Assembly: GCF_000317065.1 (NCBI RefSeq)
Contig: NC_019701.1
Coordinates: 868,001 to 932,000, forward strand
Direction: 5' to 3'
DNA length: 64,000 bases
Source of the DNA: Pseudanabaena sp. PCC 7367
Lineage (GTDB): Bacteria > Cyanobacteriota > Cyanobacteriia > Pseudanabaenales > Pseudanabaenaceae
A program made the position numbers and the translations under genes. This document shows positions 2,033 to 40,898 of the stretch, in pieces (position 1 is the stretch's first letter; each line of letters starts with the position of its first letter). The notes under the pieces are model-generated. The model was not told the DNA's origin. It was given only the letters and a program-made list of their open reading frames with translations, and did not search any database.

Positions 2033-2746
2033 TTAAGAAACATCGAATAAGACTGTATTGATATAGCGATCTGCCCATTCTGCCCCAAATACTTTTTCTA
2101 AAATACGCCTCGTTTTGTCGTTTTGGCGCTGCTGAGCACAATAGAATTGCTGATGAGCTAAAATTTCCTGCTGCCGATCGCCCGTTTTGTTTTGGCCAGT
2201 GGCGGCTAAGTGATTGGCCACCTGGCAATTGAGCGTCACATAGTTTTGAACTAATTCCAAAAATAGCTTTTCTTCGGCTGCCTCATTAAGGCGCACAAAA
2301 ATGCAATAGGGCGAAAAAATACTGCCCCAGGCCGGTAGCTCCCGTGGTTGGCTAAAATGCTGAGTCTGCGGCTGCCATTGATTCAGTTGGCTGGTAAATG
2401 CTTCAGACAGCGGCACCGTTGGTGATAGGTCTGCGATCGCGGCACTGATGCCATGCTTGGTGCCCACCAAATCTGCGCCAAATATTGGCAATTCATAACA
2501 TGAGTGCGGATACATCACACAATGCAGAATATCCACATTGTCGCCAATTCGGGCAACTTCAATGTGCAACTTGCGAAAGGTGGGCGATTGATAGCAATAG
2601 TTCTTAATCACTACCTTCTCGCCTTCAAGCGTACCTTCAACATAGCCCAAATCCTCAGGCATTTGATAGGTAGACAAGTCAAGTTGCTGCTGCCAAATCA
2701 GCTCAATTTGCTTGGCTAAGTCACCGATTAGAGGATTTAATTGCAT
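2033..2746 (-). CDS. pcyA: Phycocyanobilin:ferredoxin oxidoreductase PcyA
   Basis: It reduces biliverdin IXa to phycocyanobilin with electrons from ferredoxin, giving the bilin for phycobiliproteins and phytochromes. It has 237 residues, close to the family length. The core around LHIE, LHCVMYP and LPIFGADLV is typical. Glu63, His75 and Asp92 sit 13 residues before the known Synechocystis catalytic residues Glu76, His88 and Asp105, all with the same offset, so the active site is intact. The segment SAAIADLSPT is also characteristic. The gene is monocistronic, with spacers on both sides. It matters for the window because its product would supply the chromophore for any bilin-binding protein here. 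Confidence 0.95.
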   Translation of the reverse strand: MQLNPLIGDLAKQIELIWQQQLDLSTYQMPEDLGYVEGTLEGEKVVIKNYCYQSPTFRKLHIEVARIGDNVDILHCVMYPHSCYELPIFGADLVGTKHGISAAIADLSPTVPLSEAFTSQLNQWQPQTQHFSQPRELPAWGSIFSPYCIFVRLNEAAEEKLFLELVQNYVTLNCQVANHLAATGQNKTGDRQQEILAHQQFYCAQQRQNDKTRRILEKVFGAEWADRYINTVLFDVS

Positions 2747-40008: not shown

Positions 40009-40278
40009 TTATAATTTTCTAATTTCCTGATCGTATTGCTCATGTGAACCAATCCAATACCAAGATATGCCATCCGATCCTAATTCTCCCAAAGCGCGAA
40101 ATTTGCGACCGATCCGAATAGAATAAATTTGTTTTTCTTTATGAACTTGCTTAAACCTAAGACTTTTATGGCGAGGATCCTTTTGCCAGAGTAGATAGTT
40201 TTTTCGAGCAAGATCTTGAACTGGTTTAGGAAGTTGAGCAAGGAGATCACGGAAAGCCTGGTTTGTTCTAGATTTCAT
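40009..40278 (-). CDS. RelE/ParE-superfamily toxin (mRNA interferase-like)
   Basis: It has 89 residues from ATG 40278 (MKSRTNQAFRDLLAQLPKPV). FRDLLAQLPKPVQDLARKNY, HKSLRFKQVHKEKQIYSIRI and GRKFRALGEL, ending in SWYWIGSHEQYDQEI, fit the cyanobacterial RelE/ParE-type (HigB/YoeB-related) toxin. The ATG overlaps the stop of the upstream gene as ATGA (4 bases), so the two are translationally coupled with the antitoxin first, as usual for type II modules. A start at 40362 would force 84 bases of overlap and is unlikely. Toxin activity (mRNA cleavage or gyrase) is not determined. Confidence 0.85.
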   Translation of the reverse strand: MKSRTNQAFRDLLAQLPKPVQDLARKNYLLWQKDPRHKSLRFKQVHKEKQIYSIRIGRKFRALGELGSDGISWYWIGSHEQYDQEIRKL

Positions 40279-40898
40279 TTGCCAGGTGGAAAAACTTCTT
40301 CTAGCGGCACAGTTCCGTTGATTGCAATATCTCGCCTTCCTGCCTCCAGCATACGATCCCACTGTTCATCAGTTGTATTGGCAAATTTACTTTCCCAGGT
40401 AAATTCATCAATGATTAACTCAAAATAATCTATTATCTCAGCCACTAGGGTGGGGTGATCGCCTTGGTTGGTCTTTTCATTAACTTGGGGAACATGGTGA
40501 TTAAGCAAATCAACGACAACATCTCTGATCGTGCCGATCGCGTTGCGGAGCTGATCAACCGAAACTCCTAGATCCAGATATTTCTCAATGAATCGATCCA
40601 GATAATGTTCTTCAAGTATTGAGGCGCTGCCAGACAGTAGAGAGTAGGTGACATATTGCAGAATACTCTCACCGTCATCCAAGCATAAATTTGTTTCTAT
40701 ATTGGTATGTACACTTTCACCAGCAATCTGATCAATTGCGAGTCGAAGAATTAGATCACTGCTTGTAGAAAGAGACTTTACCGCATCAAGGCGAGCATTT
40801 GCCGTTTGGCTAAGCTCATAGGCACGTTTTATTTCTGATTCATTCAGAAATCTATTCTGCTCTTTTGCAGCAGTAATACTTCGGGTCAAAACGTCCAT
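40275..40898 (-). CDS. Antitoxin with an N-terminal phycobiliprotein domain
   Basis: It has 207 residues. Residues 1-165 align with phycocyanin/allophycocyanin beta subunits: DVLTRSITAAKEQNRFLNE, a helix with NARLDAVKSLS, then CLDDGESILQYVTYSLLSGS, ASILEEHYLDRFIEKYLDLG and AEIIDYFELII. Cys72 matches the bilin-attaching Cys of the AAC(L/I)RD motif, and Asp75 matches its Asp, while Arg is replaced by Asp. The B-E helix loop is about 9 residues shorter than in CpcB, and the second CpcB bilin Cys is a His here (GDHPT). Residues 166-207 (WESKFANTTDEQWDRMLEA and VPLEEVFPPGK) resemble the toxin-wrapping tail of cyanobacterial antitoxins. The toxin gene overlaps by ATGA. I know of no described protein with this architecture. 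Confidence 0.8.
   Translation of the reverse strand: MDVLTRSITAAKEQNRFLNESEIKRAYELSQTANARLDAVKSLSTSSDLILRLAIDQIAGESVHTNIETNLCLDDGESILQYVTYSLLSGSASILEEHYLDRFIEKYLDLGVSVDQLRNAIGTIRDVVVDLLNHHVPQVNEKTNQGDHPTLVAEIIDYFELIIDEFTWESKFANTTDEQWDRMLEAGRRDIAINGTVPLEEVFPPGK

Follow-up and report, generated by a model that had tools for sequence, protein, structure and literature searches.

The fusion gene and its neighbor

The window analyzed here is a stretch of 64,000 nucleotides from the genome of Pseudanabaena sp. PCC 7367, and positions without a prefix refer to it. On the minus strand, at 40275–40898, it contains an open reading frame of 207 amino acids which consists of two parts. Residues 1–163 (40410–40898, minus strand) form a phycobiliprotein domain of the beta type, as judged from a Pfam match, a phylogenetic tree and matches to PDB structures, and residues 164–207 (40278–40409, minus strand) correspond to the C-terminal, presumably toxin-binding tail of an antitoxin, recognized by its identity to the tails of short antitoxins. 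The phycobilisome family PF00502 matches residues 6–164 with an E value of 5e-28 and a score of 98 bits (cut-off 22), and the best NCBIfam equivalogs of the reading frame are CpeB and CpcB, both scoring far under their cut-offs. The adjacent gene (40009–40278, minus strand) codes for a ParE-like toxin of 89 amino acids which matches PF24732 (E value 6e-12, 45.8 bits against a cut-off of 24.4) and has its conserved residues intact. The two genes overlap in the sequence ATGA (40275–40278, minus strand), with the TGA stop codon of the first gene at 40275–40277 and the ATG start codon of the toxin gene at 40276–40278. The gene is thus a natural fusion of a phycobiliprotein domain and an antitoxin tail whose stop codon overlaps the start of the toxin gene.

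Relatives of the toxin occur in 85 of the 386 genomes of the phylum, with identities of up to about 54%. Directly upstream of these relatives a short protein of about 65–90 amino acids is nearly always encoded, for example MTELLQQAIAQIQKLPPDRQDAIAARFLAELQDEQKWETRFADTTDDQWDQMAAMVRQEIAGGETVPLDEVFPTQK, and at most of these loci antitoxin and toxin gene also share the ATGA overlap. Residues 164–207 of the fusion protein are 49–57% identical to the last 44 residues of such toxin-adjacent short antitoxins from other genomes, and 59% identical to the tails encoded at two further loci (L094 and L095). Since the tail alone matches the short antitoxins, the phycobiliprotein domain replaces the first 30–35 antitoxin residues; the usual short helical N-terminal part is absent from the fusion and the phycobiliprotein domain stands in its place. 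This N-terminal part is variable within the antitoxin family and is not strictly defining. The designation as antitoxin in the original prediction appears well supported by the homology of the tail together with the neighboring toxin. Type II antitoxins in general bind their toxins by the tail and, by analogy, the tail of the fusion protein would be expected to bind the ParE-like toxin. A search by sequence found no close relative of the toxin with a solved structure, and promoter and operator scans upstream of the fusion gene revealed nothing persuasive.

The short antitoxins preceding PF24732 toxins (loci L050–L078 and L166–L245) constitute a common cyanobacterial family, for which searches of Pfam, NCBIfam and PADLOC gave no significant match.

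Occurrence of the fusion

Searches of genomes of the phylum (386), the family (38) and the class (388), and of viral contigs, plasmids and phages, gave no further fusion of this kind among the matches listed. A scan of 84,980 species, which detects close relatives only, returned seven matches, all of them ordinary antitoxins and none a fusion; all these searches overlap. An orthologue of the fusion protein was not found in the collections searched, and a phycobiliprotein gene precedes the toxin gene in one of the 110 toxin loci examined, namely at the fusion itself. Two candidates for a second fusion were rejected: the locus L093, suggested by tblastn, codes for an ordinary antitoxin, and at G070:C113 a normal CpcB had been spuriously extended beyond stop codons.

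A gene seen in a single genome, with a second example lacking, raises the question whether two genes were merely fused by an assembly or sequencing error. We consider this hardly credible, since the assembly comprises two contigs and is 100% complete, the reading frame runs across the joint without a break and the toxin gene overlaps it by ATGA, as is usual.

Other members of the antitoxin family carry N-terminal additions of a different kind. At one locus (L072, nt 716–1498, reverse complement) the antitoxin tail is preceded in frame by about 215 nuclease-like residues, which show a weak match to a type I restriction enzyme family (HSDR_N) below the cut-off, and at two loci (L229 and L244) an antitoxin of the same family bears a second N-terminal antitoxin-like domain (MTPELLELEGTWEEIL...). 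Because of these three cases the N-terminal exchange in the antitoxin family seems to recur.

Origin and predicted fold of the phycobiliprotein domain

The closest relative of the domain is a paralogue encoded on a plasmid of the same strain (G000:C1:265461-265943) with 37% identity. In a tree of 64 phycobiliproteins both sequences form one clade with a support of 99/98 and with long branches; the tree does not settle where this clade stands with respect to CpeB/CpcB, but in sequence searches CpeB and CpcB rank first. The paralogue adjoins phycoerythrin genes. It was also considered as a candidate for a second fusion, but its C-terminus has been removed by an IS630-like insertion (L079:15462-16486), its final residues derive from the IS element, and past this insertion no antitoxin tail is seen in the sequence. 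A second, nearly identical IS630-like copy is located at L079:8741-9765.

The AlphaFold2 model of the fusion protein has a phycobiliprotein fold with a mean pLDDT of 78.5. A single unbroken helix (residues 147–173) spans the joint between domain and tail, and the confidence is low at residues 61–65 inside a shortened loop. In a Foldseek search with this model phycocyanin and phycoerythrin beta chains rank first, the best match being a phycocyanin beta chain with an E value of 3e-7. The domain has kept 20 of the 39 near-invariant positions of beta subunits (columns with at least 95% conservation). Asp13 and Arg91 are the alpha–beta contact residues for phycobilisome assembly; in the domain this pair is lost (D13 to K12, R91 to Q81), and these substitutions argue against the domain joining phycobilisomes. 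Domain and paralogue form a long-branched clade, yet their frames are open, which suggests that the domain is under selection.

These data also bear on the idea that a chance deletion fused an antitoxin gene to a phycobiliprotein gene in decay, in which case only the tail would matter and the domain would be passive baggage. Such an origin would fit with a fusion seen in one genome only among the matches listed, and the unrelated N-terminal additions elsewhere in the family make the N-terminal part look replaceable. However, the frame of the domain is open throughout, half of the near-invariant positions are kept and the fold prediction is fairly confident, so that we regard an incidental fusion as rather unlikely.

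The bilin attachment site

The original prediction had focused on the motif NLCLDDGES (residues 70–78; 40665–40691, minus strand) as a possible site for a covalently bound bilin. In an alignment with 29 beta-type subunits, numbered according to CpcB, and in alignments with the CpcB and CpeB of the genome and with solved phycoerythrin beta chains, Cys72 (codon TGC, 40685–40683) and Asp75 (codon GAC, 40676–40674, both minus strand) indeed correspond to Cys82 and Asp85 of the family. The other details of the prediction also agree with these alignments: Arg84 between the two residues is replaced by Asp74, the loop ahead of Cys72 has a deletion of nine residues, and Cys153, the second phycocyanin bilin cysteine, is His149. 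Cys72 is the sole cysteine of the fusion protein.

The loss within the pocket, however, goes far beyond the one arginine noted in the prediction. Compared with CpcB, the changes R77 to I67, R78 to E68, N72 to S62, Y74 to H64 and G71 to E61 are found as well. Together with Arg84 and the loop these are residues which generally contact the bilin. For any two given columns among the 39, the probability of both being kept is 20/39 x 19/38 = 0.26. Retention of Cys and Asp thus matches the overall level of conservation, and the bilin site does not appear to be preferentially preserved. The conservation of Cys72 in close homologues, which the prediction had named as a test, can be followed in the plasmid paralogue only, as no orthologue was found; the paralogue has kept the cysteine but lost the aspartate.

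A separate short-loop family of phycobiliprotein-like proteins has to be considered here. All 32 members possess both Cys and Asp, and in 28 of them Tyr takes the place of Arg. Since this family conserves Cys and Asp mostly without Arg, Arg loss and a short loop need not exclude a bilin. The family is widespread and its members are possible bilin binders; in the source genome it is represented by a tandem pair (G000:C2:2499060-2500361, L130), with other members at loci L136–L165. The genome also encodes six CpeS-type lyases, and the pcyA gene is found in the window as predicted (2033–2746, minus strand), though it lies 38 kb from the fusion gene and is unlinked. As lyases and PcyA are expected in any phycobilisome-bearing strain, they are weak evidence for a bilin.

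A pigmented antitoxin could operate as follows: an S-type lyase would place a bilin on Cys72, and either light or bilin occupancy would alter the stability of the antitoxin or its binding to the toxin, which would then respond to light or to the pigment status. In its favor, Cys72 and Asp75 are in place, the genome has six lyases of the CpeS family, and the short-loop family with its invariant Cys and Asp mostly lacks the Arg as well. CpcS-type lyases act on Cys84 of nearly all phycobiliproteins (PMC2327270), and with AplA there is a precedent for a phycobiliprotein working outside light harvesting (PMC2246261). Against this stand the loss of the pocket residues and of the loop, the chance-level retention of Cys and Asp and the absence of the Asp from the paralogue. 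We therefore consider a pigmented antitoxin unlikely. A covalent bilin on the domain, called plausible in the original prediction, likewise seems doubtful on present evidence, and that it should control the binding of the ParE-like toxin by the fused tail appears decidedly improbable. Most likely Cys72 and Asp75 are inherited residues and, judged from the sequences, no evidence of pigment. The observation behind the prediction is right, and the weight given to the Cys/Asp retention was overstated; the real novelty is the whole fusion gene rather than these two residues.

A probable bilin-free scaffold

The reading which we favor, with a probability of about 60%, is that the domain serves as a bilin-free folded scaffold in place of the short N-terminal region of the antitoxin. 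A duplicated phycoerythrin/phycocyanin-type beta subunit would have diverged, probably losing the chromophore loop before the fusion, because the plasmid paralogue has the same changes. The diverged subunit would then have displaced the short N-terminal region of a typical cyanobacterial antitoxin, with the last phycobiliprotein helix continuing into the antitoxin tail. The tail would be expected to wrap around the ParE-like toxin, which is encoded by the overlapping gene downstream, and to block it, and the domain, presumably devoid of bilin in vivo, may set the oligomeric state, the stability or the turnover of the antitoxin.

This scaffold role is consistent with both halves matching known families, with the usual antitoxin length of about 65–90 amino acids, with the existence of other N-terminal attachments, with the predicted fold and its helix across the joint, and with the loss of the D13/R91 pair. 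Several points count against it: the sole cysteine is located exactly at the bilin position and is accompanied by the Asp, a small coincidence, in the short-loop family Cys and Asp persist although the Arg is mostly absent, and the fusion is without orthologue in the collections.

Proteolysis of the phycobiliprotein domain driven by NblA is not favored as a trigger, as the genome contains no NblA (PF04485) match, despite a phycobilisome gene set with phycoerythrin.

As far as our literature search reaches, this would be the first antitoxin built on a phycobiliprotein, and the fusion demonstrates that antitoxins of this family can exchange their N-terminal part. Should the domain bind a bilin, it would couple a toxin that arrests growth directly to light or to the pigment state. 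If it is bilin-free, it clearly exemplifies how an antenna protein of photosynthesis can be put to an unrelated use.

Comparison with known systems

With the CpeB and CpcB beta subunits (PF00502) the fusion protein shares the fold, roughly 27–34% identity and the Cys/Asp at positions 82/85. It differs from them by the loop deletion, the loss of the pocket arginines and of the alpha–beta contacts, the absence of the other bilin cysteines and the antitoxin tail. The short antitoxins (MTELLxxAIAxIxKLP...TVPLDEVFP) with their PF24732 toxins have in common with it the C-terminal 44 residues, the gene order, the ATGA overlap and the toxin family, whereas the fusion has a 163-residue phycobiliprotein domain instead of the first 30–35 residues. 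The short-loop family resembles the domain in the short loop before the Cys, the kept Cys and Asp and the mostly lost Arg, but forms a separate clade, has kept R91 and has no antitoxin part. Finally, phycobiliproteins of the AplA type also use the phycobiliprotein fold outside the phycobilisome; in contrast to the fusion protein, AplA is alpha-allophycocyanin-like and is without an antitoxin part.
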